Shown here piece by piece: positions 20,625 through 40,175 of a DNA stretch of 64,000 nt. The notes beneath the pieces are model-generated. The model was given only the letters and a program-made list of their open reading frames with translations, was not told where the DNA came from and did not search any database. The DNA comes from Pseudomonas muyukensis. GTDB taxonomy: Bacteria > Pseudomonadota > Gammaproteobacteria > Pseudomonadales > Pseudomonadaceae. The number at the start of each line of letters is the position of its first letter. Position 1 is the first letter of the stretch. The stretch is from the NCBI RefSeq assembly GCF_019139535.1, contig NZ_CP077073.1:3438501-3502500 (forward strand). The letters are read 5' to 3'. A program made the position numbers and the translations under genes.

Positions 20625-20768
20625 ACCTCGAGAAAAAGGTGGAGAAACTTCGGATTCTTGCGCTGCATTCAACGAGTTGAATACCATGACAACCGCTGTG
20701 GTATAGCACAGTTGGATATCACGCTAATGCGTGATCGATAATATCTATCAACTCATCCACGCTATCGA

Positions 20769-21863: not shown

Positions 21864-21900
21864 TGGCACCCTCGATCAAAACCCTGGCAGCCCCAGGCAA
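21864..21900 (+). promoter_or_regulatory. Tandem FeaR-like boxes before the FAD oxidase gene
   Basis: TGGCA-N8-CAA occurs at 21864-21879 and again at 21885-21900, start to start 21 bp. Tandem direct repeats two helical turns apart suit an AraC-family activator. Equivalent pairs lie at 27130-27167, 29147-29183 and 33979-34016. The remaining 260-base gap upstream shows no gene. Confidence 0.65.
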
Positions 21901-21993
21901 GACACCTACCGATCGTTAGGTGCTCAATGCCGGTCACAGCCAGCGCTTGTGCAAGCCCTGCTTTCCAATAATTCCAACTGTCCAGGCTGCGCC

Positions 21994-23292
21994 ATGATCA
22001 ACATCGAAACGCCTACCTATTACACCGCGACCAAGAAATACAACTTGAGCTTCCCGACCCTGGAAAGCGATATCGACGCCGATGTGGTGGTGATCGGTGG
22101 CGGCTTCTCGGGCATCAACACCGCCCTGGAGTTGGCCGAAAAAGGCATCACCAACGTCGTCGTGCTCGAAGCCCGCTACCTGGGTTTCGGTGGCACCGGG
22201 CGCAACGGCGGGCAGATCATGGCCGGCATCGGCCACGACCTGGAGAAGATCAAGAGCAGCGTCGGCGACCAAGGCCTGCGCGAAATTTTCGAGATCAGCG
22301 AGCTGGGCGCCGGCATCATCAAGGACCGCATCGCCCGCTACGCCATCGACGCCGACTTCTGCCACGGCTACGGCTACATGGGCTTCAATGCCCGCCAGGC
22401 CAAGACCCTGCGCGCCTGGGAAAAGGACTTCAAGGCCATCAACGGCAAGGATGAGATCCGCTTTCTCGGCGGCTCGGAGGTCAAGCAGATCATCGGCTCC
22501 GAGGCCTACAGCAGCGCCCTGCTGCACATGGGCGGCGGCCATGTGCATTCGCTGAACCTGCTGCTTGGCGAGGCCCAGGCCCTGGTCGGCCATGGCGCGC
22601 GAATCTTCGAACACAGCCCGGCCCTGCAAGTGCACTACGGCGAGCGCATCACCGTGCGCACCGGACGCGGCTCGGTCAAGGCCAGCAAGCTGCTGTGGGC
22701 CTGCGACAGTTTCCTCAACAAGCTCGAACCCGAGCTGCACGCGCGTACCGTCAACACCTATGCCTTCCAGCTGATGAGCGAACCGCTGAGCGATGAGCTG
22801 ATCCAGCGCATCAGCCCGATCCGCGGTGCCTACAGCGATATCCGCCCGGTCATCGACTATTACCGGGTGACCCGCGAGAACCGCCTGCTGTTCGGCGCCG
22901 CCACGCCCTTCGTCGAGCACATCCCCAAGGACCTGAAGGCCTGGAACCGCAACCTGATGCTGAAGATCTTCCCTTATCTGAAGGACGTGCGCATCGACCT
23001 GGCCTGGGGCGGACCGATGGCCACCAGTGCCAACCTGTTCCCGCAGATCGGCACCCTGAGCAATCGCCCCAACGCCTTCTACGTGCAGGGCTATTCGGGC
23101 TTCGGCGTCACCCCCAGCCACATCATTTGCAAGATTCTCGCCGAGGGCATGAGCGAAGGCTCCAGCCGCTACGACCTGATCAGCTCGGTCAAGCACGCCC
23201 GCATCCTCGGCAAGGACCATATCCGCCCACTGCTGCTGACCGCCGGCAAGACCGTGCATCAGTTGTCGGGCTTCTTCAACGGCCGCCGTTGA
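21994..23292 (+). CDS. FAD-dependent amine oxidoreductase (PuuB/DAO family)
   Basis: A 432-residue flavoenzyme. The FAD-binding strand is DVVVIGGGFSGINTALELAEKG (Rossmann GxGxxG type) near residue 30, with VVLEARYLGFGGTGRNGGQ following, the sequence pattern of gamma-glutamylputrescine oxidase and related DAO-family amine oxidases. C-terminal GYSGFGVTPSHI completes the FAD site. It probably oxidises a primary or secondary amine to an aldehyde or imine. The ATG at 21994 starts just before the family's N-terminal helix. It forms an operon with the cupin gene 28 bases downstream, under the FeaR-like boxes. Confidence 0.88.
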   Translation: MINIETPTYYTATKKYNLSFPTLESDIDADVVVIGGGFSGINTALELAEKGITNVVVLEARYLGFGGTGRNGGQIMAGIGHDLEKIKSSVGDQGLREIFEISELGAGIIKDRIARYAIDADFCHGYGYMGFNARQAKTLRAWEKDFKAINGKDEIRFLGGSEVKQIIGSEAYSSALLHMGGGHVHSLNLLLGEAQALVGHGARIFEHSPALQVHYGERITVRTGRGSVKASKLLWACDSFLNKLEPELHARTVNTYAFQLMSEPLSDELIQRISPIRGAYSDIRPVIDYYRVTRENRLLFGAATPFVEHIPKDLKAWNRNLMLKIFPYLKDVRIDLAWGGPMATSANLFPQIGTLSNRPNAFYVQGYSGFGVTPSHIICKILAEGMSEGSSRYDLISSVKHARILGKDHIRPLLLTAGKTVHQLSGFFNGRR

Positions 23293-23320
23293 GCCCTTTC
23301 ATCCGACCAGGAGATCCATC

Positions 23321-23686
23321 ATGACCCTTACCGCCGTCCGCCAGGGTGTGCAACTGTCCGAACTCGACGCCTGGGGCACCGTTGCCGACCTTGGCTCGAC
23401 CATCCTCGAAGGCGAGGTCAAGTGCTACGGCAAGATGACCCACGGCGCACCGAGCGACCCGGTCAGCAGCGCCTATTTCGGCACCACCCAGGGCAAGTTC
23501 CGCATGGTCTATCCGTTCAGCGAGCAGGCGGTGATCGTCACCGGCGAGATCCAGCTGACCGATGAAGCCACCGGCCAGGTCACCCGCTACAAGGCCGGCG
23601 ATGCCTGGTTCGTGACCAAGGGTACGGCGGTGCTGTGGGAGGTGTTGAGCGAGACCTTCGTCAAGCATTACCTCGCTGTCGCCTGA
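23321..23686 (+). CDS. Small cupin-domain protein (EutQ-like)
   Basis: A 121-residue single cupin barrel. The second half shows the cupin fold with FRMVYPFSEQAVIVTGEIQLTDEA and YKAGDAWFVTKGTAVLWEV. It belongs to the ethanolamine-utilisation/DUF861-like cupins that often accompany amine or amino-acid oxidases. The precise role is unknown. It follows the FAD oxidase closely behind CAGGAGATCC, so the two are cotranscribed. Confidence 0.85.
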   Translation: MTLTAVRQGVQLSELDAWGTVADLGSTILEGEVKCYGKMTHGAPSDPVSSAYFGTTQGKFRMVYPFSEQAVIVTGEIQLTDEATGQVTRYKAGDAWFVTKGTAVLWEVLSETFVKHYLAVA

Positions 23687-23705
23687 TAGCGTTCGCCACA
23701 ACCCC

Positions 23706-23763
23706 TGCAGCGCCTATCAGATCGAGCGCCGCCCGCGCGGCGCTCGGTCTGATAGGCGCTGCA
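23706..23763. repeat. Long palindromic element, copy 2
   Basis: Arms GCAGCGCCTATCAGA... and ...TCTGATAGGCGCTGC close around a GC-rich centre GCCGCCCGCGCGGC. It lies between the convergent cupin and AraC genes and is the most symmetrical of the four copies. Confidence 0.8.
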
Positions 23764-23799
23764 AGGCTATCGGCGCACCCCCTCGAACGCCTTGCCCCC

Positions 23800-24771
23800 T
23801 CACCGCCCCACCATCAACGCCATGGCCCGATAATCCTTCGGCGACTGCTCGAACTGCTTCTTGAACGCCCGGCTGAAATGCGCCGAATCGGTGAACCCCC
23901 ACTTATAGGCAATCGAGGTGATCGACTCGCGCTTGAGAAACGGGTTGGCCAGGTCGTCGGCGCTACGCTTGAGCCGTGAACGCTGGATATACCGGCAGAC
24001 ACTGTCCCCCTCCTCCTCGAACAACCGGTACAGGTGGCGTACCGAGATGCTCAGGCGCTCGGCCAGGTTGGCCGGGGTCAGCCCCGGCTGGCCCAGCGAC
24101 TCGTCTATGACCTTCTGCACATAGCCGCGCAGGTTCGTCCCAGCGAGCCCCGACAGCGCCCCGGGATCATCCCCGCTGCGCTCGAAGCCCGGCGCCAGCA
24201 AGGCGATGAACGCCGACTGCAAGGCTTCGCCCTGGGCATCACCGCTCGCGTCGCCCTCACGGCACAGCTGGTCCATCAACACGTGCAGCATGCGCCCGCA
24301 GGCATTGGTCGAGGAGATCTTGCCGAAGGTTGCCCCGGGTCCGCTCAGGTGCTTGCGCACCTGTTCACGGGACAACGACAGCGAGACGTGCTCGATCAGG
24401 CCGAACGGGGTGATCTCGCACGGCCCTACCGAATCCATCAGCAGCAGCTCACCGGGCGCCAGCTGGATGCTGATGCCATCCTGGGTGATCCGCGAATAGC
24501 CCATGCGCTGGCTGACCAAAAAGCAGTGCTGGTCGTCGTCGCAGTCGGCCTTGTCGCCCATGCGGCGAATATTGCCGGCGTTGGTACGCAGGTTGGCCAA
24601 GGCCAGGCCGGCGCGATTGAAGGTGCAAATTTCACCGATGAACAGTGAGCGGTTGAACGCAAGCTCGGTCTGGAAGCGACCGCAGACCTGCTGCATGGCG
24701 CTGGTCCAGCGCTCCAGGCCGTCGACGACCAGGTGTGCGCTGTGCGGTGAAGCGGGCTGGGGCATGGGCAT
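23800..24771 (-). CDS. AraC-family regulator, FeaR-like
   Basis: A 323-residue regulator. The N-terminal AraC-binding-like domain has GLALANLRTNAGNIRR and the SPGELLLMDS-type cupin strand (QLAPGELLLMDSVGPCE). The C-terminal AraC helix-turn-helix domain follows at about 220-320 (LAERLSISVRHLYRLFEEEG, then ITSIAYKWGFTDSAHFSRAFKKQF). This architecture is that of FeaR, activator of tyramine and phenylethylamine use in enterics. The ATG at 24771 is chosen over a GTG upstream because GGAGGT precedes it. It sits between the amine oxidase operon and the permease operon and is the obvious candidate to bind the tandem boxes found at four promoters. Confidence 0.88.
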   Translation of the reverse strand: MPMPQPASPHSAHLVVDGLERWTSAMQQVCGRFQTELAFNRSLFIGEICTFNRAGLALANLRTNAGNIRRMGDKADCDDDQHCFLVSQRMGYSRITQDGISIQLAPGELLLMDSVGPCEITPFGLIEHVSLSLSREQVRKHLSGPGATFGKISSTNACGRMLHVLMDQLCREGDASGDAQGEALQSAFIALLAPGFERSGDDPGALSGLAGTNLRGYVQKVIDESLGQPGLTPANLAERLSISVRHLYRLFEEEGDSVCRYIQRSRLKRSADDLANPFLKRESITSIAYKWGFTDSAHFSRAFKKQFEQSPKDYRAMALMVGR

Positions 24772-24861
24772 GGCGACCTCCACACGCAACGATTGTTGTT
24801 ATGGAGTAATTGTTAACATGTTATCTATAAAGGTACAACCTCTCCCAGGAACACGCCCCCT

Positions 24862-24980
24862 TTGTAGGAGCGGCCTTGTGTCGCGAATGGGCTGCGGATT
24901 TCAGCACCCAGCGAGATCGCAGGGGCCGCCATGCGGCCCTTCCCGACCGATCCGACGCCTCCCCCACAAAGGGCCGCATT
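24862..24980. repeat. REP-type sequences upstream of the AraC gene
   Basis: TTGTAGGAGCGGCCTTGTG and following TCGCGAATGGGCTGC are the usual P. putida-type REP core, accompanied by a GGGCCGCCATGCGGCCC hairpin. The region lies between the AraC gene and the 3' end of the DUF3156 gene. Confidence 0.55.
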
Positions 24981-24984
24981 GGCT

Positions 24985-25539
24985 TCAAAGGGCTTGCAGG
25001 GTATCTGCCAACACGTCGAACGCCCGCCACAGCAGGCGACGCTGTTCGGTGTCGAGGGGAATGTAACGACGCAAGGCGGGCATGCGGTTGACCACCTCGC
25101 TGGCGCCCATGTGCTCCAGGGTCACCCGCCACTCACCCTCGTCGCAGTCGATGACCAGGCGCTTGAAGTCCAGCGGCATCAGCATGGCGTCAACCTTGCC
25201 GAGGCGCGCCTTGAGCGCCTCGAACAATACCGGGTCGCCGCCCCGCAGGCGGCACGCCAGGCCGCTGCGGCGAAGTACGCCGGTATGCTGTAACTCGACG
25301 CGCAGAGTCCCCTGGTTGTGGGCAGGCACGCGCAGGATGAACTCGCACATCACCAGGTGCATCAGCAGGTGGCTCTCGGTGCGTTCGCGCACCTCGATAC
25401 GTGGACCATCCTCGCGGTAGGAAAAACGGCTGAGATCCGCAACCCCGAGGTTGCGCGCCAGCCGCTGCAAGGTCGCCCCTGGCCGGTACCCGGCCGGGGC
25501 GCGCGGCGCGGTCAGGCGCTCAAGCCAGCTTGCCGACAT
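24985..25539 (-). CDS. DUF3156-family protein
   Basis: A 184-residue protein starting MSASWLERLTAPRAPAGYRPG. It contains the RVPAHNQGTLRVELQHTG segment and ends YIPLDTEQRRLLWRAFDVLADTLQ. I place it in DUF3156 from its context and pattern; no activity is known. Its start lies 20 bases inside the end of the permease gene, so it is translationally coupled and may help the permease or bind its substrate. Confidence 0.7.
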   Translation of the reverse strand: MSASWLERLTAPRAPAGYRPGATLQRLARNLGVADLSRFSYREDGPRIEVRERTESHLLMHLVMCEFILRVPAHNQGTLRVELQHTGVLRRSGLACRLRGGDPVLFEALKARLGKVDAMLMPLDFKRLVIDCDEGEWRVTLEHMGASEVVNRMPALRRYIPLDTEQRRLLWRAFDVLADTLQAL

Positions 25540-27019
25540 GCTGCACCTGCTCGCTGATGGCCTGGCCGGGTTCGGCGGCGAATGCCTCCTCCAGCACCTC
25601 TTCGACCCGCGCCGGCTTGAACGGATTGACCTTCTGCACGCACAGGGTCCAGAACAGCGCATAGGCCGCCGTGGCACCGAGCATCACGGCAAAGGGGATA
25701 TAGACTTCGGCAGGGTTCATGCCCGGTGGCGTGATGAACCACATGCCCAGCAAGATACCGATGCTGGAGACGATCTGCGGCAATGGGAACAGCGGCGAGC
25801 GGTAGGCACGCGGCAGGTCCGGGCGGCGGATGCGCAGCAGCACCACCGACAGGGTCACCAGCAGGTATGCGGTGCTCCAGGCGCACACCGCCGCCAGCAC
25901 CAGGTGCAGGATGTTGTCGGTGTTGCCGCCCAGGTACCAGGCGTGCAGGCACGGAACCAGCGCCACCACCAGGATGCACAGCAGCGGCGTCTTGAAGCGT
26001 GGATGCAGGTAGCTGAACACCTTGGGCAGCGCGCCATCCACCGCCATGCCGTAGAGAATCCGCGGCACGCCGGCCATCAGCGTGTTGATGGTGGCGGCAC
26101 CGGCGAACAACAAACCGATGCCCAGCCATACCGGGCCGATATCGCCCATCACCTGCTCGGCGAAGCGTGGAATGGCCATGGGCGTGTCCAGCAGGTGCAC
26201 GCCGCTGGCGGCGTCGAGCACCACGTTTTCCACCTGGCGCTTCATCGCCGCGCCGTAGATGAACATGCAGCTGGCCACGCCGAACAGGCCCAGGGCCATG
26301 GCCTTGGGCATCACCCAGGCCGAGCGCTTGAGCTCCGGGGCCAGCGGGGTGACGAACTCGCAGCCGACGAACATGAACATGGCCATGCCCACCAGCGAGA
26401 GGATGGTCATCAGGTCGGTGCCGACCAGCGACACACCGAACGGCCCATCCAGTTCCACCGCCGGCGCGGCAAGCAGGCCGAGCACGCCGAACACCATCAG
26501 CGTGGTCCACATGCCGAAGGTCAGCACCACTTCGGCGCGACCGAAGGCGCTGACGCCAAAGGCGTTGAGCACGCCGAACACCAGCACGAAGCCGACCCCC
26601 AGCAACCAGGAGCCGCCGGCCGACTCGGCCAGGGTGTTGAGGTGCTCGAAGTTCACCAAGGCCATTACCCCGGACAGGATGGTCTCGGCGGTGCCGGCGA
26701 ACACATGCACGATCAGGTACGCCGACAGCGTGCCGGTGATGGCGAAGAAACGGCCCAGGCCGCAGTTGATGTAGTCGTACACCGAACCGGTGGTCGGCAG
26801 GATCGCCGCCGCCTCGGCAAAGGTGGTCGACTGGGCCAGCATCATCACCGCGGCGATCACCATGGCCACGGCGAAGGCGCTGCCGCCGATGCCGAAGCCC
26901 ATGGTCGCGGTGAGGATCACGGGGCTGGCCATGATCAGGCCGACAGTGCTGGCCAGCGCGGTAGGAAAACCGACGCTGCCGCGGTTGAGGTGCTCGGTGA
27001 GCTTATTGTTGATTGTCAT
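25520..27019 (-). CDS. APC-family amino acid/amine permease
   Basis: A 499-residue inner-membrane carrier with about 12 hydrophobic segments. The first is ALASTVGLIMASPVILTATMGFGIGG, with the APC substrate-binding helix break; the EAAAILPTTGSVYDYINCGLGRF motif and FVGCEFVTPLAPELK follow, both typical of amino-acid/polyamine permeases. It probably imports the amine or amino acid fed into this cluster. The ATG at 27019 is the start of the family's N-terminal region. FeaR-like boxes lie upstream at 27130-27167. The DUF3156 gene overlaps its 3' end. Confidence 0.92.
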   Translation of the reverse strand: MTINNKLTEHLNRGSVGFPTALASTVGLIMASPVILTATMGFGIGGSAFAVAMVIAAVMMLAQSTTFAEAAAILPTTGSVYDYINCGLGRFFAITGTLSAYLIVHVFAGTAETILSGVMALVNFEHLNTLAESAGGSWLLGVGFVLVFGVLNAFGVSAFGRAEVVLTFGMWTTLMVFGVLGLLAAPAVELDGPFGVSLVGTDLMTILSLVGMAMFMFVGCEFVTPLAPELKRSAWVMPKAMALGLFGVASCMFIYGAAMKRQVENVVLDAASGVHLLDTPMAIPRFAEQVMGDIGPVWLGIGLLFAGAATINTLMAGVPRILYGMAVDGALPKVFSYLHPRFKTPLLCILVVALVPCLHAWYLGGNTDNILHLVLAAVCAWSTAYLLVTLSVVLLRIRRPDLPRAYRSPLFPLPQIVSSIGILLGMWFITPPGMNPAEVYIPFAVMLGATAAYALFWTLCVQKVNPFKPARVEEVLEEAFAAEPGQAISEQVQHVGKLA

Positions 27020-27129
27020 GGCTGGGCCCTGGATGGACGAGGGAAAGATGACTGCTTGGCCCGCGCGCCGCAAGTGCTGGCGCGTGTCGGGTCGACCTGG
27101 TCACTTTGCGGCCTCGTAGCTGGCGGGTC

Positions 27130-27167
27130 TTGCCATTGCCTGCCGCCGGCCTTGACCGGTGCTGCCA
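27130..27167 (-). promoter_or_regulatory. Tandem FeaR-like boxes before the permease gene
   Basis: On the minus strand TGGCA-N8-CAA spans 27167-27152 and CGGCA-N8-CAA spans 27145-27130, 22 bp apart. They lie 111 bases before the permease ATG and match the pairs at the three other promoters of the cluster. Confidence 0.6.
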
Positions 27168-27186
27168 GGGGCTGGGAGCACGTCTT

Positions 27187-27242
27187 GCGGCGCCTGTCAG
27201 ATCGAGCGCCGCGCGGGCGGCGCTCGATCTCATAGGCGCCAC
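27187..27242. repeat. Long palindromic element, copy 3
   Basis: GCGGCGCCTGTCAGATCGAG and its inverted partner CTCGATCTCATAGGCGCC surround GCGCCGCGCGGGCGGCGC. It lies between the flavin reductase end and the permease promoter, in tandem genes on the minus strand, so it probably ends the reductase message. Confidence 0.75.
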
Positions 27243-27267
27243 CACTCCCCCGCCAAGCCCCCTACAC

Positions 27268-27822
<555 letters not shown>

Positions 27823-27836
27823 TCAGCGGTCGCGGC

Positions 27837-29018
27837 TCAGGTCATCGCAGGATCCGGCTCCAGGCCCATCAACTCGCGGCCGAGGATCTGCGCGCAGACG
27901 TCGTAGTCGGTGTAGGCATGGGCCCCGGTCATGTGCGCATCGCGAAACAGCCGCTGCATTTCGTTGCTGTCGAACCAGGCGCCGCCGCCGGCCGCCTCCA
28001 TCAGCCGGTCCACCGCCTGGATGCACAGCTTTACCGCATAGCCCTGGTTGGTGCGCCAGAACGCCAGCTCGGTGCGGGTCGGGTACTGGTGCCGGGCACT
28101 GTAGTCGGCGATCTGCTCCCAGCTCTTTTCCAGCAGCGCCCGCGCCGCGGCCACCTGGTGGGTCGACTCGGCCAGGCGCATCAGCGCTGGGGTGGCGGCG
28201 CCCACCGCAGCTCCGGTGTAGGCGCGCACGCGGTGGCGGGTCTTGTCCTTGAAGGCTTCGAGCATGCGCTCGGCGATACCCAGGCTGACGGTGGAGAACC
28301 CGCTGGCGAAATAGGGCCGGTAGGGGTTGAAGTAGATTGCGCTGTCCGGGTACAGGCCAAAGCCTGCCGAGGTGCCTTCCATCATGTCCCTGGCCCGCTG
28401 GATGCGGTGTTCGGGCACGAAAGCGCGATCGACGATCAGCGTGCGGCTGCCACTGGCGCGCAGGCCCGCCGCGTACCAGTCGTCACGGATCTGGTAGTCG
28501 CTGCGCGGCAGCACGGCGAAGCAATAGTCCTGGCCGCCATCACCATTGGCCCGGCGAAACCCCATGATCGCCCACTCGGCATGGTCGCAGCCACTGCTCC
28601 AGCCCATCTCGCCACTGAACCGCACACCGCCGTCGACCTCTTCGGTACGGCCGAACGGGGCGATGCTGCTGCTGGCGGTGGCGTCTGGGTCGCGCCCCCA
28701 GATTTCATCCTGCAAACGTGCCGGGAACATCGCCAGCTGGTGGCTGTGGGTGCACAGCAGGCTCATGGCCCAGGCGGTGCTGGCGCAGGCGCCGGCCAGC
28801 GCGGCGATGCATTCGGCGAACTGCGCCAGGCTGATCTCCAGGCCACCATAGTGGCGCGGCTGCAAGGCCCGATGCAGGCCGATGCCCTTGAGCAGGGCGA
28901 TGTTCTCGGCGGGCACGCTGCGCGCACGCTCGGCCTGGTCGGCACGGGCGGCGATGGCTGGCAGCAGGGGCTTGAGGTCTTCGAGCAGGGCGTTTGGCTT
29001 TTTCATGGTCTGGCTCAT
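27837..29018 (-). CDS. Flavin-dependent monooxygenase, acyl-CoA-dehydrogenase fold (HsaA/HpaB-like)
   Basis: A 393-residue oxygenase of the two-component class D type. It has the N-terminal helical domain (LLKGIGLHRALQPRHYGGLEI), the mid-beta substrate/flavin region (MGWSSGCDHAEWAIMGF) and the C-terminal four-helix domain with WRTNQGYAVKLCIQAVDRLMEAAGG. Relatives hydroxylate phenols, for example in 4-hydroxyphenylacetate or steroid-derived ring degradation. The reductase partner is the next gene. It is divergent from the aldehyde dehydrogenase. The natural substrate here is unknown; an aromatic intermediate of an amine pathway is plausible. Confidence 0.87.
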   Translation of the reverse strand: MSQTMKKPNALLEDLKPLLPAIAARADQAERARSVPAENIALLKGIGLHRALQPRHYGGLEISLAQFAECIAALAGACASTAWAMSLLCTHSHQLAMFPARLQDEIWGRDPDATASSSIAPFGRTEEVDGGVRFSGEMGWSSGCDHAEWAIMGFRRANGDGGQDYCFAVLPRSDYQIRDDWYAAGLRASGSRTLIVDRAFVPEHRIQRARDMMEGTSAGFGLYPDSAIYFNPYRPYFASGFSTVSLGIAERMLEAFKDKTRHRVRAYTGAAVGAATPALMRLAESTHQVAAARALLEKSWEQIADYSARHQYPTRTELAFWRTNQGYAVKLCIQAVDRLMEAAGGGAWFDSNEMQRLFRDAHMTGAHAYTDYDVCAQILGRELMGLEPDPAMT

Positions 29019-29146
29019 TGTTATTGGACCGTGGCGGGGATGGGCCTGAAACAGGCTGCCCGCGAATGAATGCCGGATCAGTATGAGAGGCGGTCGGGGC
29101 CTGGAAAATGCAACTTCCGCAGCTCGCATTGCACTTTCCCAAGGGC

Positions 29147-29183
29147 TGGCAGGCTGGGTCATGGGGCTGGCATGGGCAGACAA
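29147..29183 (+). promoter_or_regulatory. Tandem FeaR-like boxes before the aldehyde dehydrogenase gene
   Basis: TGGCA-N8-CAT at 29147-29162 and TGGCA-N8-CAA at 29168-29183, 21 bp apart, face the dehydrogenase. A TAATCT-like -10 lies near 29206. A further repeat, TGCAACTTCC (29109-29118) and TGCACTTTCC (29130-29139), also 21 bp apart, sits just upstream and may serve the divergent monooxygenase. Confidence 0.65.
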
Positions 29184-29289
29184 GCAGCCGACGCCGCCAG
29201 CCCCGTAATCTGGCTGCGACCTGGGCCGCTGCGCGGCCCTTCGCAGGCCAACTGCCACAGGGACAGCATCCATTGCCCGGAGCCATAGC

Positions 29290-30777
29290 ATGAGCGACAT
29301 CCCCCTCCTACCCACCGTCAACGCCTTCCTGGCCCGCGACCACGGCCTGTACATCCATGGCCGGCACGTCGCCAGCCAAGCCAGTGGCCGCCTCGCCGTG
29401 CACAATCCGGCCAACGGCCAGGTCATCGCCCAGATCGCCGACGCCAACCAGGCCGACGTCGACCGCGCCGTCGATTCCGCGCGCCAAGGCTTTGCCGCCT
29501 GGTCGCGCACCAGCCCCGCCGCCCGCGCCGCCGTATTGTTGCGCCTGGCCGACCTGCTCGAAGCCCACCGCGAGGAACTGGCCCAGCTCGAGACCCTGCA
29601 ATCGGGCAAGCTGATCGGCATCGCCCGGGCCTTCGAGGTCGAGCAGGCGGCGCACTTCCTGCGCTACTACGCCGGCTGGGCGACCAAGATCACCGGCCAG
29701 ACCATCACCCCGTCGCTGCCCTCCTTCGCCGGCGAGCGCTACAGCGCCTTCACCCTGCGCGAACCGGTGGGCGTGGTGGCCGGTATCGTGCCGTGGAACT
29801 TCGCCACCATGATCGCCTTGTGGAAACTGGCCTCGGCGCTGACCACCGGCTGCAGCATCGTGCTCAAGCCCAGCGAGTTCACCCCGTTGACCCTGCTGCG
29901 CATCGCCGAGCTGGGCAGCGAGGCCGGGTTGCCGGCCGGCGCGCTCAACGTGGTGACCGGTGCCGGTCACGTTGGCAAGGCGTTGGTCGAACACCCCGGC
30001 ACCGACAAGGTCTCGTTCACCGGTTCCGTGCCCACCGGCATCGCCGTCGGCCAGGCGGCCATGGGCGCCAAGCTGACCCGCGCGACCCTGGAGCTGGGCG
30101 GCAAGAATGCCGTGGCCTTCCTCCCTGACGTGGGCCTGGACAAGGCGGTGGACGGCATTATCGAGGCCGGCTTCCTGCACAGCGGGCAGATCTGCGCCGC
30201 GGGCGAGCGTTTCTATGTCCAGCGCTCGCGGCTCGAGCCCTTGCTCGACGGACTGGGCCAGCGCCTGGGGCAACTGAAGATCGGCTCGCCGCTGGACGAA
30301 ACCACCCAGTTCGGGCCGGTGGCCAACAAGCCGCACCAGCAAAAACTCGGCGAGCTGTTCGCCACCGCCCGCGCCGAAGGCAACCGGATCGTCCACGGTG
30401 GGCGCCTGGGCGAGGGCCCGGGCTGCTTCGTCGAGCCCACGGTGATCCTTGCCAACCAGGCCAGCGACACCCTGCTCAACCAGGAAACCTTCGGCCCGGT
30501 GGCGACCTTCCTGCCCTACGATGACGAGGACGAGCTGCTGCACCTGATCAACGCCTCGCCCTATGGCCTGAGCGCGAGCCTGTGGACCAACGACCTGGCC
30601 AAGGCCATGCGCCTGATCCCCGAGATCCAGGCGGGTACCTTGTGGGTCAACATGCACACCCTGCTCGATCCGGCGGTTCCCTTCGGCGGCATCAAGGCCT
30701 CCGGCATCGGCCGCGAGTTCGGCTCGGCCTTCATCGACGACTTCACCGAGCTCAAGTCGGTGATGATGCGCTACTGA
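29290..30777 (+). CDS. NAD-dependent aldehyde dehydrogenase (FeaB-like)
   Basis: A 495-residue ALDH that oxidises aldehydes to acids. Cofactor and active-site residues are in place: VPWNFATMIALWK with Asn170, TGSVPTG, LELGGKN with Glu268, and the catalytic Cys302 in SGQICAAGERF. Sequence style is close to phenylacetaldehyde dehydrogenases. It would act directly after the amine oxidase. The LuxR-type gene starts two bases after its stop, so they are one operon. FeaR-like boxes precede it. Confidence 0.93.
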   Translation: MSDIPLLPTVNAFLARDHGLYIHGRHVASQASGRLAVHNPANGQVIAQIADANQADVDRAVDSARQGFAAWSRTSPAARAAVLLRLADLLEAHREELAQLETLQSGKLIGIARAFEVEQAAHFLRYYAGWATKITGQTITPSLPSFAGERYSAFTLREPVGVVAGIVPWNFATMIALWKLASALTTGCSIVLKPSEFTPLTLLRIAELGSEAGLPAGALNVVTGAGHVGKALVEHPGTDKVSFTGSVPTGIAVGQAAMGAKLTRATLELGGKNAVAFLPDVGLDKAVDGIIEAGFLHSGQICAAGERFYVQRSRLEPLLDGLGQRLGQLKIGSPLDETTQFGPVANKPHQQKLGELFATARAEGNRIVHGGRLGEGPGCFVEPTVILANQASDTLLNQETFGPVATFLPYDDEDELLHLINASPYGLSASLWTNDLAKAMRLIPEIQAGTLWVNMHTLLDPAVPFGGIKASGIGREFGSAFIDDFTELKSVMMRY

Positions 30778-30779
30778 CC

Positions 30780-31436
30780 GTGACCAGCACCGCCCAGGCG
30801 CTTGGTCGCTACTGCCTGCAAGCCTTCAGCCAGCAAGTGCCGGCGTCGCTGGCGGCGTTTTATCGGATCGACGCCGAGCAGCAGGCCTGCGACTTCCTGT
30901 TGCAGGACCTGCAGGCACCCATGCATGCGCGCTACCTGGCGCACTACCGGGCCTACGACCCGCTGCAACCGGGGCGCTGCCTGGCCATCGGCCAGCCGGT
31001 GGTGTCGCTGCGCCAGGGCCTGGCCTGCCTGCCCGAGGCCCAGGGCCAGACCTACCGACGCTTTCTGGCGCAACACCAGGTGGTGGATGTGGTGGAAATC
31101 ATCGCCCAGGTCGATGCGCGCCCGGTGGCGGGGGTGTCGCTGTTGCGCTGTCCGGACCTGGGCCAGTTCCAGGCCGACGAACTCGAACGCCTGCTGCCGC
31201 TGCACGGCCTGATGCAGCTGGCCCTGGCCAGCCAAGCGCCGGCCCGTTGCGTCAGCCCTGAACTGACCCCAAGGGAACGGCAGATCGCCGAACTGCTGCG
31301 CCAGGGCTGCAGCAACAAGCTGATCGCCCGCGCGCTGGGCCTGGGCCTGCCGACCGTGAAGACCCACCTGATCAACCTGTTCCGCAAACTCGGCGTGAGC
31401 AACCGCACCGAGCTGGTGGCGCAGCTGTACCTGTGA
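30780..31436 (+). CDS. LuxR-type transcriptional regulator
   Basis: A 218-residue protein with a C-terminal LuxR/GerE helix-turn-helix at about residues 155-218 (LTPRERQIAELLRQGCSNKLIARALG, then TVKTHLINLFRKLGVSNR). The N-terminal 150 residues match no domain I can name; there is no phospho-acceptor receiver domain and no clear autoinducer domain. The GTG at 30780, two bases after the dehydrogenase stop, is the only suitable start. It is probably a second, pathway-level regulator in this cluster. Confidence 0.85.
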   Translation: MTSTAQALGRYCLQAFSQQVPASLAAFYRIDAEQQACDFLLQDLQAPMHARYLAHYRAYDPLQPGRCLAIGQPVVSLRQGLACLPEAQGQTYRRFLAQHQVVDVVEIIAQVDARPVAGVSLLRCPDLGQFQADELERLLPLHGLMQLALASQAPARCVSPELTPRERQIAELLRQGCSNKLIARALGLGLPTVKTHLINLFRKLGVSNRTELVAQLYL

Positions 31437-31512
31437 CTCAACCTTGCGGTTGATACCGTCGCGTGCGCCTGCGCTGCAACCTGTGGGTCTCTCAACCACA
31501 GGAGTCACCGCC

Positions 31513-32331
31513 ATGTCCCCGCAAGCCGACTGGATCACCGTGGGCGCCCTTGCCGAAGGCTTCGCCCCTGGCGCCTTCATCCTGCCGCAACTGGCCGACC
31601 TGTCCGGGCGCAGCCTCAGCCTGCACTTCGCCAACGGCTGGGTCATCGAGCACCGTTTCGACGCCGAGCGCCTGCACTGGCACGCCGCCGATGGCCACAG
31701 CAGCGGCAGCGCCGACTATCGCGCCACCTCGGTGCGCCCGGGCATCTACCTGGTGGATTTCATCAAGCACGACGCCGGCCAGGCCTGCTCGGTGTCGCTG
31801 GTGCTCGACACGCACACCCAGGCCTTCACCGCCGTGCTCGGCCGCCTGCCCGAGCAGGCCCGCACCCAACGCGGGCTGTATGCGCTGGCCCTGGCCGGCG
31901 AGCCACTGACCGGCGTCGAGGCCACCTTCCTGCACGGCAGCCTCGACCGCCCCTGGCAACCAGGCGCCTGCCCGCACGCGCCGAGCACCGAGCTGGTGGG
32001 CCTGCGCAACCATTACCGCTACAGCCCCAGCGAGGAATACGAGCACCTCTACCTCAACGCCAACCACTACAGCTGGCAGTGCCTCAAAGGCGTCGAGCAG
32101 GGCCTGTGCGACACCGACCGCGCCTACTACTACAAGATCGCCGAGCAGCTGTACCTGTTCGTCTGGTGCGAGAAGATCGTGCCGACCCTGGGCCTGGTGC
32201 TGATCGACCTGGCGCAACAGCGCAGCGACGGCAAGATCTTCGGCTACCAGGGGGGCAGCTTCGATAGCCTGGCCAACTTCCCAGTGTCGTCCTATTGCCG
32301 GGTGGTCAATCGCACGGAGTACCCGCTGTGA
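31513..32331 (+). CDS. MoaF-type protein of the monoamine regulon
   Basis: A 272-residue lipocalin-like protein of the MoaF type: N-terminal ILPQLADLSGRSLSLHFANGW, a central VRPGIYLVDFIKHD strand pair, and a C-terminal EEYEHLYLNANHYSWQCLKG and KIFGYQGGSF pair. MoaF was named in the Klebsiella monoamine regulon; despite the symbol it has nothing to do with molybdopterin. Activity is unknown, possibly ligand binding. The ATG follows ACAGGAGTCACCGCC. It begins a three-gene block with two SDRs, each overlapping the last by four bases. Confidence 0.82.
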   Translation: MSPQADWITVGALAEGFAPGAFILPQLADLSGRSLSLHFANGWVIEHRFDAERLHWHAADGHSSGSADYRATSVRPGIYLVDFIKHDAGQACSVSLVLDTHTQAFTAVLGRLPEQARTQRGLYALALAGEPLTGVEATFLHGSLDRPWQPGACPHAPSTELVGLRNHYRYSPSEEYEHLYLNANHYSWQCLKGVEQGLCDTDRAYYYKIAEQLYLFVWCEKIVPTLGLVLIDLAQQRSDGKIFGYQGGSFDSLANFPVSSYCRVVNRTEYPL

Positions 32332-33119
32332 GTCGCAGTGTCCTGATCACCGGCGCCGGCAGTGGCATCGGCGCGGCCTGTGCCCAACGCCTGGCGCGCC
32401 AGGGCTGGCAGGTGGCGCTGCTCGGCCGGCGCCGGGCGGCACTGGAGCAGGTGGCGCAGGCCTGCGGGGGCCTGGTGCTGGCCGGCGATGCGGCAGACAG
32501 CGCCGCCTGGCCCGCGTTCATCGGCCAGCTGCGCGAACGCTTTGGCGGCCTCGACGCGGTGATCGCCTGTGCCGGCGGCCACGGCCTTGGCCGCGCCGGC
32601 GATATCGATGACGCGGCCTGGCGCGAGGCGCTGCGCAGCAACCTCGACAGCGCCTTCCAGACCGCCCGCGCCTGCCTGCCACTATTGCGCGAGCGGCGTG
32701 GCAGCCTGGTGCTGCTGGGCTCCATCGCCTCGCTGGCGGCCGGCCCCGAGGTGTGCGGCTACACCACCGCCAAGCACGCGCTGATCGGCCTGACCCGCTC
32801 CCTGGCCCGCGACTACGGGCCGGACGGCGTGCGGGTCAACTGCGTCTGCCCAGGCTGGGTGCGCACGCCCATGGCTGACCAGGAAATGCAGGCGCTGATG
32901 AGCCATCATCAGGAGGACCTGGAGGCCGCCTACCGCCGGGTCACAGCGGATGTGCCGCTGCGCCGCGCCGCCAGCAGCGACGAGATCGCCGCGGTGTGCC
33001 AGTTTTTGGTCGGCTGCGACGCCAGCATCGTCACCGGCGCGGTGATCACCGCCGATGGCGGCGCCACCGTGGTCGATGTGCCGACCTTGGCCTACGCCCG
33101 CCTGGCGCCACAACCATGA
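32328..33119 (+). CDS. Short-chain dehydrogenase/reductase (first of two)
   Basis: A 263-residue classical SDR: TGAGSGIG cofactor loop near residue 9, AGG loop, catalytic Ser in SIASLAAG, and YTTAKHAL for the YxxxK pair. It ends with a TADGGATVVD C-terminus. The GTG at 32328 overlaps the MoaF stop by four bases. Oxidises or reduces an alcohol/ketone of unknown identity, presumably from the amine pathway. Confidence 0.9.
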   Translation: MSRSVLITGAGSGIGAACAQRLARQGWQVALLGRRRAALEQVAQACGGLVLAGDAADSAAWPAFIGQLRERFGGLDAVIACAGGHGLGRAGDIDDAAWREALRSNLDSAFQTARACLPLLRERRGSLVLLGSIASLAAGPEVCGYTTAKHALIGLTRSLARDYGPDGVRVNCVCPGWVRTPMADQEMQALMSHHQEDLEAAYRRVTADVPLRRAASSDEIAAVCQFLVGCDASIVTGAVITADGGATVVDVPTLAYARLAPQP

Positions 33120-33883
33120 ACGCCCGCTACGACTTCACAGGCAGCACGGTACTGGTCACCGGCGCGGCCGGCGGCATCGGCCAGGCCATCGTCGCAGGCT
33201 TCGCCAGCGGCGGCGCCCGGGTGCTGGCCGTGGACCTCAATGACGCAGCGTTGCAAAGCCTGCAGGCCCGGCATTCGGCATTGGGCCATGCGCTGCAGGC
33301 CCATGCCCTGGACCTGGCCGACCACGACGCCATTGCCGCACTGCTGGCGGGCCTGGAGCGCCTCGACGTGCTGGTGCACAACGCCGGGTACTTCCCCCTT
33401 ACCGCGTTCGCCGAGCTCGACCCGGCGCGGCTGCGGCGCACCTTGGCGGTGAACCTGGAGGCGCTGTTCTGGCTGACCCAGGGCGCGTTGCCGCTGTTCA
33501 CCCGCCAAGGCGGTGGTTGCGTGCTGGCCACCTCGTCGGTGACCGGGCCACGGGTGGCCTACCCCGGGCTCTGCCATTACGCCGCATCCAAGGCCGGGGT
33601 CAATGGCTTCATCCGCAATGCGGCGCTGGAGCTGGCTGCGCTGAATGTGCGGGTCAACGGCGTCGAGCCGGGGATGGTCCGCACCCCGGCCATGGGCAAC
33701 CTGGGCGACACCGCGTTGAACGCGCGGATTGCCGCCGCCGTGCCTCTGGGGCGGCTGGGCGAACCGGCCGATATCGCCGCGGCGATGTTGTTCCTGGCCT
33801 CCGACGCCGCCCGCTATGTCACCGGGCAAACCCTGGTGGTCGACGGCGGCGCCACCTTGCCAGAAAGCCTGGCCTGCTTGTAG
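33116..33883 (+). CDS. Short-chain dehydrogenase/reductase (second of two)
   Basis: A 255-residue classical SDR with TGAAGGIG near residue 15, HNAGYF, catalytic Ser in TSSVTGPR and YAASKAGV (YxxxK). It ends in DGGATLPES. It overlaps the preceding SDR by four bases. The two SDRs in a row, both cotranscribed with MoaF, suggest either a heteromeric pair or two successive redox steps. Confidence 0.91.
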   Translation: MNARYDFTGSTVLVTGAAGGIGQAIVAGFASGGARVLAVDLNDAALQSLQARHSALGHALQAHALDLADHDAIAALLAGLERLDVLVHNAGYFPLTAFAELDPARLRRTLAVNLEALFWLTQGALPLFTRQGGGCVLATSSVTGPRVAYPGLCHYAASKAGVNGFIRNAALELAALNVRVNGVEPGMVRTPAMGNLGDTALNARIAAAVPLGRLGEPADIAAAMLFLASDAARYVTGQTLVVDGGATLPESLACL

Positions 33884-33964
33884 GCGCCAGCCTCGCTGGC
33901 GAACCAGGCAGCGCCGTGGAGGGCACCGGCTACGCCGGTGTTCGCCGGCAAGCCGGCGCCTACA
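33879..33964. repeat. BIME-like inverted repeat after the SDR pair
   Basis: Outer arms TGTAGGCGCC (33879-33888) and GGCGCCTACA (33955-33964) enclose further CCGGCTACGCCGG and GCCGGCAAGCCGGC hairpins. The SDR stop codon lies in the left arm. It probably terminates or protects the SDR message and separates it from the porin gene. Confidence 0.6.
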
Positions 33965-33978
33965 TCTACCCCGCCCCG

Positions 33979-34016
33979 TGGCGGTGACAGCCAAGCCCCC
34001 TGGCAGCCATGGACAA
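33979..34016 (+). promoter_or_regulatory. Tandem FeaR-like boxes before the porin gene
   Basis: TGGCG-N8-CAA (33979-33994) and TGGCA-N8-CAA (34001-34016), 22 bp apart, followed by a TAATAC-like -10 at 34041-34046. The second box to -10 distance resembles that at the aldehyde dehydrogenase promoter. Confidence 0.6.
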
Positions 34017-34110
34017 GACCGCGCCCGCCCGGCCACGCGCTAATACCCCGTCACCTGCCTCCACAACGACGCGGCAACCAAGACCGCACACAACAAACGA
34101 GGATCGACCC

Positions 34111-35424
34111 ATGCGTCTCACCCCACGCCGCACCGCCCTGGCCAGCGTCCTGGCCCTGCTGGTCCACGGCCCGGCCAGCCTGGCCCATGAGCTGTACGCC
34201 GACGACGACACCCACCTCAACGCCGACCTGCTCGCGGTCTGGGGCATGTTCAACAGCCGCCACAACTACGATGGCAGCCCCGGCGGCTCGACCTGGCGCG
34301 AAGGTTTCATCAAGTACGGACTGAGCGGCGACCAGGGCCTGGGCGGCAACGGCACCCTGTATGGCGCGCTCAACTGGGTCAGCTCCAGCGCCTGGGGCGA
34401 TGGCGATGCCGGGGGCAACCAGGACGGCTCCGAGCGCACCAGCAAGATCGAGGACGCCTACCTGGGCTGGCGCTCCGGCGCGTTGTTCCCGGGCCTGGGC
34501 CAGGACGGCGTGGACATTTCCGGCGGTCGCCAGGTGATCCAGCTGGGCAGCGGGTTTCTGATCAACGACGACGGCCCCAACCTGGGCAAGGGCCCGGCCG
34601 AGGGCCAGCTCAACCGTGGCGGCGGGTTCTACCTTGGCGCCCGCCATGCCTTCGACCGCACCGCGCTGCTGCGCCTGGGTGGCAAGGACGGCCTGCATGG
34701 CAGCGTGCTGTGGCTCAAGTCCGATAACCGTGCCCAGGCCGAGACCGAACTGGCCGCCGGCACCCTGGACTACACCTATGCCCTGGGCACCCTGGGGCTG
34801 ACCTACATCCATGGCATCGACGTCGCCGACCAGTGGGCCAGCGAATTCCAGAAGGCCCGCGAGGGCATGGATGTGTACAGCCTGCGTGGCGAAGGCAGCG
34901 CCGGCCTGGACAACACCCGCCTGGCGTTCGAGTACGCCTGGCAGGACAAGCGCGGCGGCAGCGAGAGCGCCTGGTATGCCGAGGCCGGCTACACCTTCGC
35001 CGACCTGCCCTGGGCGCCGCAGCTGAGCTATCGCTACACCCGCTACTCGGCCGGCTGGGACCTGCTGTTCACCGGGTTGTCCAGCGGCTACGGCACCTGG
35101 ATCCAGGGCGAGGTGGCCGGCAACTATGCCGGGCCGTTCAACAGCAACAGCGGCATCCACCATGTCGGCCTGAAGGCCACGCCGCGGGACGATGTCACCC
35201 TTGGTGCGCTGTTCTTCGACTTCAATACCGTGCGCAGCCGCGACACCCTGAACCTGGATGCCCGGGAGCTGGACCTGTATGTGGAGTGGGCGGTGACCCC
35301 GCACCTGATCGTCACCCCGCTGCTGGGGCTGTTCAAGCCGCGCAAGGATGCCAGCAATGGCGGCAACCAGGTGGGCAGCGGGACCAATGTGTACAGCCAG
35401 CTGACGGTGGCGGTGCCGTTTTGA
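34111..35424 (+). CDS. Outer-membrane channel protein of the amine cluster
   Basis: A 437-residue beta-barrel protein with a signal peptide (ALASVLALLVHGPASLAH, residues 9-26). The body shows alternating amphipathic strands rich in Tyr, Trp and Gly (FIKYGLSGDQGLGGNGTLYG, GAVLWLK-like strands, FNTVRSRDTLNL) and ends in QLTVAVPF with the C-terminal aromatic residue used for outer-membrane insertion. It resembles alginate-export/porin-type proteins but I cannot assign a substrate. Probably imports the cluster's substrate across the outer membrane. Own promoter with FeaR-like boxes. Confidence 0.75.
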   Translation: MRLTPRRTALASVLALLVHGPASLAHELYADDDTHLNADLLAVWGMFNSRHNYDGSPGGSTWREGFIKYGLSGDQGLGGNGTLYGALNWVSSSAWGDGDAGGNQDGSERTSKIEDAYLGWRSGALFPGLGQDGVDISGGRQVIQLGSGFLINDDGPNLGKGPAEGQLNRGGGFYLGARHAFDRTALLRLGGKDGLHGSVLWLKSDNRAQAETELAAGTLDYTYALGTLGLTYIHGIDVADQWASEFQKAREGMDVYSLRGEGSAGLDNTRLAFEYAWQDKRGGSESAWYAEAGYTFADLPWAPQLSYRYTRYSAGWDLLFTGLSSGYGTWIQGEVAGNYAGPFNSNSGIHHVGLKATPRDDVTLGALFFDFNTVRSRDTLNLDARELDLYVEWAVTPHLIVTPLLGLFKPRKDASNGGNQVGSGTNVYSQLTVAVPF

Positions 35425-35484: not shown

Positions 35485-36363
35485 TCAGCCCAACAGCAGG
35501 CGCAGGTCGGCGCCGGTTTCAGCCAAGGGCGGGCACCAGTAGTAGCCGCCGCTCAACGGCCGGCTGAAGCGGTACAAGCCGTCGATCACGCCATCTTCCA
35601 GCCCGCTCATGCGCCGCAGCTGTACCTCGAAGGCATCCAGCGAGAAGCCCAGGGCGACGAACGCCAGGCCCGCGCCGCGCTCGTCGGCCCAGGCCACCGA
35701 GCGGCGCACCACGAACGCCTCGGGGGCGAAGCTTTCCTGGGCGGTGCGCTTGACGTGGGCCGACGCCGGCGCGTCGTCGAGTTCTTCGTTGTCGCTCAGG
35801 CGGCGGCCGATGATGTTGTCCTGCTCAGCCTGGGGCAGCGCCTTGAAGTAGTTCAGGTCGTGCTGCCACAGCTGGAAAGCCGCAAAGCTGGAGCCGGCCA
35901 GGCCCGGGGCATCGCCCGGCACGATGGCGGCGGCCACGGCGTCTTCGTCCACCGGGTTCTCGGTGCCGTCTTCGTAACCGGTCAGGTCATGGCCGCCGCG
36001 GTGCAGGAAACCGTCGACGCTGTCGACCAGGCGCAGCGCCGGGGCCAGCAACTGGCGCAAGGCTTCGCCGCGCAGGAACAGATCGCCGCGTTCCTCGCCG
36101 CGTAGCCACAGCCACAAGGCGTGCTGGGTGGCCGGGTTCTCCACCACCGCATCCAGTTGCGGGAAGCTGCGCAGCCCCGGCACTTCGCGGCCCAAGGCTT
36201 TGACCAGGGGAGCGCCGATGGCGAGGATCAGGTTCTGGCCATCGACCTGGGCGATCAACTGGTCGAGTACCCCAGGCAAGGCCTCGTGCGAATCCAGGGC
36301 AAAGAACAGGTGGCGGGCATGGGCCGGCACCGGGGTGGCAAGCAGACCTTGCTGGAACGGCAT
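35485..36363 (-). CDS. DyP-type haem peroxidase (second)
   Basis: A 292-residue dye-decolourising peroxidase, different in type from the one at 19677. The signature GYEDGTENP holds catalytic Asp132. The proximal haem His lies in DAPASAHVKRTAQESF. C-terminal GLYRFSRPLSGGYYWCPPL is family-typical. No signal peptide. It is divergent from a BASS transporter with a nested palindrome between them, suggesting shared regulation. Confidence 0.92.
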   Translation of the reverse strand: MPFQQGLLATPVPAHARHLFFALDSHEALPGVLDQLIAQVDGQNLILAIGAPLVKALGREVPGLRSFPQLDAVVENPATQHALWLWLRGEERGDLFLRGEALRQLLAPALRLVDSVDGFLHRGGHDLTGYEDGTENPVDEDAVAAAIVPGDAPGLAGSSFAAFQLWQHDLNYFKALPQAEQDNIIGRRLSDNEELDDAPASAHVKRTAQESFAPEAFVVRRSVAWADERGAGLAFVALGFSLDAFEVQLRRMSGLEDGVIDGLYRFSRPLSGGYYWCPPLAETGADLRLLLG

Positions 36364-39907: not shown

Positions 39908-40156
39908 ATGACACAAGCATCCCCTCTGGCCGTGGTCAAGCACTGCCAGAGCCCCTCCTACAGCCCCGACAGCACGGCCCTTGTGGTCCGTAGCTACGCC
40001 TCTGAAGTAGGGCTTCATATAACCAAATCAATGCTTGCTCAGCCGAAACTAACTCATAAGGTCAATCATTACGACATCGAACTAGTATTTTTACCAGGTG
40101 ACAAGCCTTCCGACACCCCAGACACTGAACGTAAACCGACGCTTTTCAAACCTTGA
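39908..40156 (+). CDS. Small hypothetical protein preceding the Rhs gene
   Basis: An 82-residue frame (MTQASPLAVVKHCQSPSYSPD... ending ERKPTLFKP) 20 bases before the giant gene and with the same lower-GC style. It has no recognisable domain and only a weak ribosome site. It could be a small partner or chaperone for the toxin, or a non-coding stretch. Confidence 0.4.
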   Translation: MTQASPLAVVKHCQSPSYSPDSTALVVRSYASEVGLHITKSMLAQPKLTHKVNHYDIELVFLPGDKPSDTPDTERKPTLFKP

Positions 40157-40175
40157 ATTCGGTGGAGAATACGAG

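Follow-up and report, generated by a model that had tools for sequence, protein, structure and literature searches.

The window analysed here is a stretch of 64,000 nucleotides (64 kb) from Pseudomonas muyukensis (contig NZ_CP077073.1, positions 3,438,501 to 3,502,500), whose genome of 5.53 Mb is assembled in one contig. Between positions 21864 and 35424 it carries a gene cluster built around a FeaR-type activator and a flavin adenine dinucleotide (FAD) oxidase, which is in our view very probably a regulon for the use of tyramine/dopamine-type phenylethylamines as nutrients, feeding the homoprotocatechuate (hpa) pathway. Pfam and NCBIfam profile scans of the window proteins recovered the whole gene inventory of a first-pass annotation made from the letters alone, and the cluster genes are listed below (SDR, short-chain dehydrogenase/reductase).

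21994..23292, plus strand: DAO-family FAD amine oxidase, 432 amino acids, proposed tyramine/dopamine oxidase (profile scan, homologue starts)
23321..23686, plus strand: Cupin_3 protein (profile scan)
23800..24771, minus strand: FeaR-type AraC activator, 323 amino acids (NF007243 passed with 392 bits, cut-off 199)
24985..25527, minus strand: DUF3156 protein, approximate start (profile scan)
25520..27019, minus strand: APC-family permease, proposed amine uptake (profile scan)
27268..27780, minus strand: flavin reductase of 4-hydroxyphenylacetate 3-hydroxylase, short form, 170 amino acids (profile scan)
27837..29018, minus strand: oxygenase component of 4-hydroxyphenylacetate 3-hydroxylase, approximate start (NF045920, 708 bits, cut-off 650)
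29290..30777, plus strand: aldehyde dehydrogenase, proposed (4-hydroxy)phenylacetaldehyde dehydrogenase (best family StyD)
30790..31436, plus strand: LuxR-type regulator, approximate start (41% identity over 129 amino acids to the Klebsiella aerogenes 'monoamine regulon transcriptional regulator')
31507..32331, plus strand: MoaF, approximate start, longest open reading frame (ORF) from 31444 (both MoaF Pfam domains)
32331..33119, plus strand: SDR 1, approximate start (profile scan)
33116..33883, plus strand: SDR 2, approximate start (profile scan)
34111..35424, plus strand: outer-membrane channel, about 437 amino acids including the signal peptide (sub-threshold Alginate_exp match only)

The oxidase gene, previously thought to begin near 21864, was given a start at 21994; position 21864 is the start of a regulatory box, and the resulting 432 amino acids agree with the length of most homologues among the 120 matches listed. 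For the channel gene an ATG at 34009 was rejected because it falls inside a regulatory box, and the start was set at about 34111, where a signal peptide is encoded. The start codons of feaR and of the permease gene lie at 24771 and 27019, and the aldehyde dehydrogenase has NF045735 (StyD) as its best family with 564 bits, below the cut-off of 850.

What the first-pass annotation had called an extra hydroxylase is, by its profile matches, the two-component 4-hydroxyphenylacetate 3-hydroxylase. The oxygenase passes the equivalog cut-off of the p-hydroxyphenylacetate 3-hydroxylase model, and the reductase reaches 318 bits with NF045919 (cut-off 340), being aligned over positions 4-165 of 309 only. 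Among 56 relatives, 21 reductases were short (168-183 amino acids) and 35 long (309-322 amino acids). The C-terminal domain of the long Acinetobacter reductase is autoinhibitory, and by analogy the short forms may be always active. The hpa meta-cleavage operon is found 71-79 kb ahead of the window (stretch L085, G000:C1 about 3359476-3367004), with hpaI, hpaH, hpaD, hpaE, hpaG2, hpaG1, hpaA and hpaR each above its own NCBIfam cut-off and an HpaF-type isomerase matching CHMI with 114 bits (cut-off 26.5); for the dioxygenase, TIGR02298 is the correct model, and TIGR02295, with two sub-threshold matches, was rejected. No HpaB-type hydroxylase was found in a search of this genome, so the hydroxylation step would be supplied by the window genes. 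On these assignments the predicted route is complete, from phenolic ethylamine through the aldehyde, 4-hydroxyphenylacetate and homoprotocatechuate to ring cleavage.

Two further families of rival enzymes were searched for at the amine end of this route. Neither a copper amine oxidase (PF01179 profile) nor the gamma subunit of a quinohemoprotein amine dehydrogenase (QHNDH gamma) occurs in the genome, which leaves the FAD enzyme as the likely deaminase of the pathway; the search covered copper and quinohemoprotein enzymes, other flavin amine oxidase families not being searched genome-wide, and this weakens the argument. The idea that a flavin oxidase stands where TynA would be is supported. From the identity of the hydroxylase and the presence of the homoprotocatechuate operon, the most likely substrate is a 4-hydroxy- or 3,4-dihydroxyphenylethylamine: tyramine, dopamine or perhaps octopamine. 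The first-pass annotation had left the substrate open and spoken of an undescribed pathway, a view that is not supported, since these genes point to a tyramine/dopamine-type amine and the unit of P. putida U is published.

In relatives the genes stay together. The named loci closest to the window come from P. mosselii, P. soli, P. entomophila and the Pseudomonas strains RIT623 and GD04091. Eighty loci were fetched by FeaR similarity; among the 63 that were full-length, the permease was present in 63, the cupin in 60 and the FAD enzyme in 57. The cupin gene adjoins the oxidase gene in 60 of the 63 loci holding both, and in one single protein (P0081) the two are fused. An hpa gene (at least 50% identity) lies within the same stretch of at most 21 kb in 58 of the 80 loci, and hpaR in 55. 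This genome, unlike those 58, has its hpa operon about 93 kb away from the amine cluster, and a rearrangement in this lineage has likely separated the two.

The first-pass annotation had also proposed a search for the same gene set in other Pseudomonas, and 149 genomes were surveyed with orthologue thresholds of at least 82% identity for the oxidase, 53% for FeaR and 63% for MoaF. The oxidase was present in 36 genomes, with FeaR and the hydroxylase nearly always alongside: FeaR occurred in 35/36 of these genomes against 5/113 others, and the hydroxylase in 36/36 (a G052 copy split over two frames was counted as present) against 7/113. Copper amine oxidases were found in 2/36 and 13/113, and quinohemoprotein amine dehydrogenases in 9/36 and 37/113, respectively. 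The distance between oxidase and FeaR is at most 10.5 kb in 30 of the 35 genomes having both. Left out of these counts were FeaR matches below 53% identity, the partial G030 match, hydroxylase hits of 32-33% identity, MoaF matches of G065 (38-39%) and a partial copper-oxidase match in G083. With 63 loci and 149 genomes in agreement, a chance grouping of the genes was rejected. A second oxidase clade (60-70% identity) was not scored as orthologous; of the seven genomes listed with it, only G120 is without a first-clade copy. In loci L128 and L130 the second-clade gene is accompanied by a FeaR-like regulator and an outer-membrane channel of its own, to which L130 adds an aldehyde dehydrogenase; its substrate is perhaps another amine.

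The FeaR motif of E. coli is TGNCA-N8-AAA. Because this motif failed in the cluster, a box matrix was trained on the promoters of relatives, with the window excluded. The sites found with it, together with one palindrome from a pattern search, are as follows.

21864..21901, plus strand: tandem pair of FeaR-type boxes ahead of the FAD-oxidase operon; TGGCA-N8-CAAG is exact at 21885, and a degenerate copy lies 21 bp upstream
27129..27167, minus strand: tandem pair of FeaR-type boxes ahead of the permease operon, spacing 22 bp, with one exact and one degenerate box
29147..29184, plus strand: tandem pair of FeaR-type boxes ahead of the aldehyde dehydrogenase operon, spacing 21 bp, with one exact and one degenerate box
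33979..34017, plus strand: tandem pair of FeaR-type boxes ahead of the channel gene, spacing 22 bp; a weak first box (10.1 bits) is followed by an exact one
24813..24824, no strand assigned: HpaR-type palindrome TTAA-N4-TTAT in the feaR promoter

Over the 64 kb, the top seven matrix matches comprise both boxes of the oxidase, permease and aldehyde dehydrogenase promoters plus the strong channel box; at the oxidase promoter the matches (24 bases) end 88 nt upstream of the ATG. Tandem pairs, defined as two boxes 20-23 bp apart that both reach at least 9.5 bits, a limit chosen after the weak channel box was known, number exactly four in the window, one per promoter, and none appeared in 100 simulated windows. 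It is therefore the pairing of boxes, and not the score of single sites, that carries the signal. Exact TGGCA-N8-CAAG also occurs four times in the window, once in each promoter, where 1.02 are expected and four were reached in 2/100 shuffles. When each promoter class was left out of training in turn, its sites ranked 2 and 12 (oxidase), 4 and 6 (permease), 2 and 16 (channel) and, as the weakest class, 9 and 32 (aldehyde dehydrogenase). Tandems were present in 35/60 oxidase, 64/80 permease and 49/62 aldehyde dehydrogenase promoters of relatives, against 39/2000 random windows, which came from the same loci and so include real sites. With the channel start at 34111, a site of at least 14 bits occurs in 29/61 relatives and one of at least 12 bits in 34/61; the figure of 1/34 forward sites of at least 14 bits, obtained with an earlier channel start, is superseded.

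These boxes argue for an amine-catabolic regulon with FeaR-type control of several operons, as the first-pass annotation had proposed. Its count of five operons under one activator was retained for four; no tandem box stands before feaR (0/80 relatives, none in the window) or faces the hydroxylase operon (0/55 relatives read forward, none in the window). The aldehyde dehydrogenase boxes lie about 130 bp from the start of the hydroxylase operon, in the intergenic region common to both, and may also act on that operon. Ahead of the hydroxylase operon (29108-29134) and in several relatives there is also a motif GTGCAAT followed 13-14 bases on by GTTGCAT or GTGCAT; it is possibly a candidate site of HpaA or another regulator, and no such pattern was found in the hpa stretch L085. 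In the feaR-feaB-tynA region of E. coli K-12 (9.5 kb) the same matrix ranked the tynA promoter first with 14.6 bits, the next site having 6.7, and a further copy, TGGCA-N8-CAAA, lies 21 bases upstream of the top site. The E. coli feaB promoter carries a tandem of TGTCA-N8-AAA, 21 bases apart, which is the E. coli FeaR motif given above. Taken together, the sites make control of the four operons by FeaR through tandem boxes the most likely arrangement.

The feaR gene itself appears to be wired differently. The palindrome TTAACATGTTAT lies 41 bp upstream of its ATG and is the only TTAA-N4-TTAW match in the 64 kb; it is kept in 77/81 feaR promoters (that of the window counted) and in no other promoter set examined. 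HpaR of Yersinia pseudotuberculosis protects TTAA-XXXX-TTAA palindromes at hpaG1 (PMC7180172). The hpa region of this genome holds three perfect palindromes, with 0.01 expected; two lie in the gap from hpaG1 to hpaA and the third precedes hpaR. Similar palindromes precede moaR in Klebsiella, separate hpaR from the adjacent hpa gene in Erwinia and occur near a weakly LuxR-like gene (22%) in Acinetobacter, and none was seen in the E. coli K-12 feaR region. HpaR thus probably represses feaR. In the open-licence PubMed Central literature no paper was recognised as describing this oxidase or a link between HpaR and feaR.

Several observations count against the reading of the cluster as one FeaR-controlled regulon. 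Exact TGNCA-N8-AAA has no match in the cluster and one unrelated match in the window, and conversely the E. coli feaB promoter was missed by the matrix and matched solely by the E. coli motif. Single sites below about 23 bits lie within chance (best site per simulated window, mean 14.4, maximum 23.0; n=100), and a lone palindrome match in a window of this size is not significant, 14/100 shuffles containing one. The oxidase is far from FeaR in G148 (59 kb) and G071 (843 kb), and the two are on separate contigs in G129, G009 and G048; G065, the sole oxidase genome without FeaR, encodes next to its oxidase a FeaR-like protein that is 30% identical.

Five genomes (G061, G073, G093, G051 and G128) have FeaR and no oxidase. 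In three of these, G061, G073 and G093, class-III aminotransferase genes stand amid the same partner genes, and tandem boxes lie ahead of the domain of the aminotransferase nearest the aldehyde dehydrogenase, although in G061 and G073 the automatically called aminotransferase frame overlaps the boxes. G051 and G128 yielded no identifiable substitute deaminase. G071 has a copper amine oxidase gene near the FAD gene, one AraC-type gene separating the two. In a fuller model, one conserved FeaR switch would drive a modular amine regulon that keeps its type of tandem boxes and varies in the deaminase, with copper TynA serving in E. coli, a flavin tyramine oxidase of the DAO family in many Pseudomonas and an aminotransferase of class III in others. 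HpaR on feaR would gate amine use, and a MoaF-SDR add-on would extend the range to beta-hydroxylated amines such as octopamine and noradrenaline; we give this model an even chance of being right.

The family of the oxidase leaves room for other substrates. It belongs to the DAO superfamily, and its predicted structure (mean predicted local distance difference test score 87) has sarcosine oxidase, proline dehydrogenase and glycine oxidase as best fold matches. Several of these fold neighbours take secondary amines, which would suit an oxidase preferring N-methylated aromatic amines such as N-methyltyramine or synephrine; we find this improbable, since the fold family, with glycine oxidase, also accepts primary amines, none of the cluster genes shows a recognisable specificity for N-methyl groups, and the aminotransferase-bearing clusters should act on primary amines. 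Slightly less probable still is that the enzyme is a gamma-glutamyl-amine oxidase of the PuuB/PauB type that looks like a tyramine oxidase only through its neighbours. Its homologues are labelled 'FAD-binding oxidoreductase' and 'gamma-glutamylputrescine oxidase' in the databases, and three genome paralogues (39, 35 and 31% identity) adjoin glutamine synthetase genes, which tells against our assignment in so far as the broad family includes gamma-glutamyl-amine oxidases. The cluster oxidase, unlike these paralogues, has no neighbouring glutamine synthetase, and neither that enzyme nor a gamma-glutamyl hydrolase is among the cluster genes scanned; the paralogues are at most 39% identical, and among the matches listed in the genus none falls between 41% and 60%. 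Moreover, the oxidase has the same boxes as the permease and the aldehyde dehydrogenase, and in three other clusters an aminotransferase takes its place.

Oxidase loci outside the genus favour a phenolic amine again. A plasmid collection contained 89 records with an oxidase homologue, of which 15 were listed, and five were fetched, all from the 11 at 60-80% identity. In all five (Acinetobacter, K. aerogenes, Sphingobium, Erwinia and Pantoea) the homologue (62-69%) adjoins cupin, permease, DUF3156 and/or aldehyde dehydrogenase genes, with hpa, hydroxylase or annotated monoamine genes also adjacent. These neighbourhoods tie the oxidase to phenolic amines independently of FeaR; no FeaR was matched at these loci and box pairs are absent, with nothing of at least 11 bits in four and one 12-bit site in Sphingobium.

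The MoaF-SDR-SDR-LuxR module, which resembles moaR-moaE-moaF of K. aerogenes, stands behind the aldehyde dehydrogenase in this cluster but behind the cupin in many other Pseudomonas (e.g. L033). We propose a role for it with beta-hydroxylated amines. It may even be that octopamine, noradrenaline and synephrine are the main natural substrates, used through this module and the oxidase: MoaF (at least 63% identity) is present in 26/36 oxidase-bearing genomes and 0/109 genomes without FeaR, the monoamine region of K. aerogenes holds moaE (an SDR), moaF and a related LuxR regulator, and P. aeruginosa PAO1 breaks down octopamine via 4-hydroxyphenylacetate. We regard this as possible but rather unlikely, because MoaF is missing at threshold in 10/36 oxidase genomes, so that the core works without the module, and because the roles of MoaF and the SDRs are themselves only proposed. 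Plasmid pZM21 of P. aeruginosa (L138) carries MoaF, SDR and LuxR regulator genes, together with one for an amino acid permease, in the vicinity of a Tn3-family transposase, which suggests that the module can be mobile. On plasmid pTC2 of the actinobacterium Paenarthrobacter aurescens (L139) a MoaF homologue has hpaE and genes for a copper amine oxidase and an amino acid permease nearby.

Outside the cluster, two different DyP-type peroxidase genes are located on its flanks (19677-20687 and 35485-36363, both on the minus strand). The upstream DyP gene and focA, each in 1/63 full-length loci, were rejected as cluster members. An ORF at 40098-48947 (plus strand, 2949 amino acids) encodes an RHS-repeat protein with a GbpA_2 domain, its GC content at third codon positions (0.68) being below that of adjacent genes.

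For the tyramine/dopamine regulon we propose the following course. The amine would be taken up by the channel and the permease and converted to the aldehyde by the DAO-family FAD enzyme with the cupin as its putative partner. The aldehyde dehydrogenase would then form 4-hydroxyphenylacetate and the two-component hydroxylase homoprotocatechuate, which would enter the hpa meta-cleavage operon elsewhere on the chromosome. FeaR is predicted to activate the four operons via TGGCA-N8-CAAG-type tandem boxes, which match in type the boxes preceding tynA in E. coli, and HpaR to repress feaR, which would make amine use responsive to the state of the pathway for aromatic acids; any parts played by the DUF3156 and LuxR proteins, MoaF and the SDRs are putative. 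If correct, this would assign a substrate to a widespread and vaguely annotated flavoprotein, show that FeaR sites outlast the replacement of the enzyme they control, and provide a precise wiring, made up of the FeaR boxes and an HpaR-type operator at feaR, for the use of tyramine, dopamine and related neuroactive amines by Pseudomonas.

Comparison with known systems places the cluster among several relatives. PuuB/PauB gamma-glutamylputrescine oxidases share the DAO superfamily (31-39% for the genome paralogues), whereas the present cluster is without a glutamine synthetase partner. The oxygenase is of the Acinetobacter two-component type by its equivalog match, but the reductase lacks the C-terminal half of the 309-position model. 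With the monoamine regulon of K. aerogenes (moaR, moaE, moaF, ats) the resemblance is considerable: about 15 kb of strain NCTC10006 hold an annotated feaB, a 67% oxidase homologue, cupin and DUF3156 homologues, a permease, moaR, moaE and moaF. That regulon differs in its LuxR-type MoaR, and a scan of 19.3 kb there matched no FeaR homologue and gave no FeaR-type box reaching 11 bits. E. coli tynA-feaB-feaR shares the FeaR-type activator, the aldehyde dehydrogenase and, ahead of the amine oxidase gene, TGGCA-N8-CAA boxes in tandem at a spacing of 21 bp; it employs a copper amine oxidase where a DAO-family FAD enzyme is found here, and the permease, channel, hydroxylase and MoaF/SDR genes are extra in P. 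muyukensis. Finally, the Tyn and Hpa units of P. putida U, reportedly described by Arcos in 2010, are said to convert tyramine and dopamine to 3,4-dihydroxyphenylacetate and onward by meta-cleavage, and going by these contents they represent the same kind of route in the same genus. The pathway type is thus already published and the oxidase is not claimed as undescribed; in P. putida loci L015 and L016 the oxidase, cupin, FeaR, permease, aldehyde dehydrogenase and hydroxylase genes stand beside hpaR, hpaI, hpaH and hpaD.

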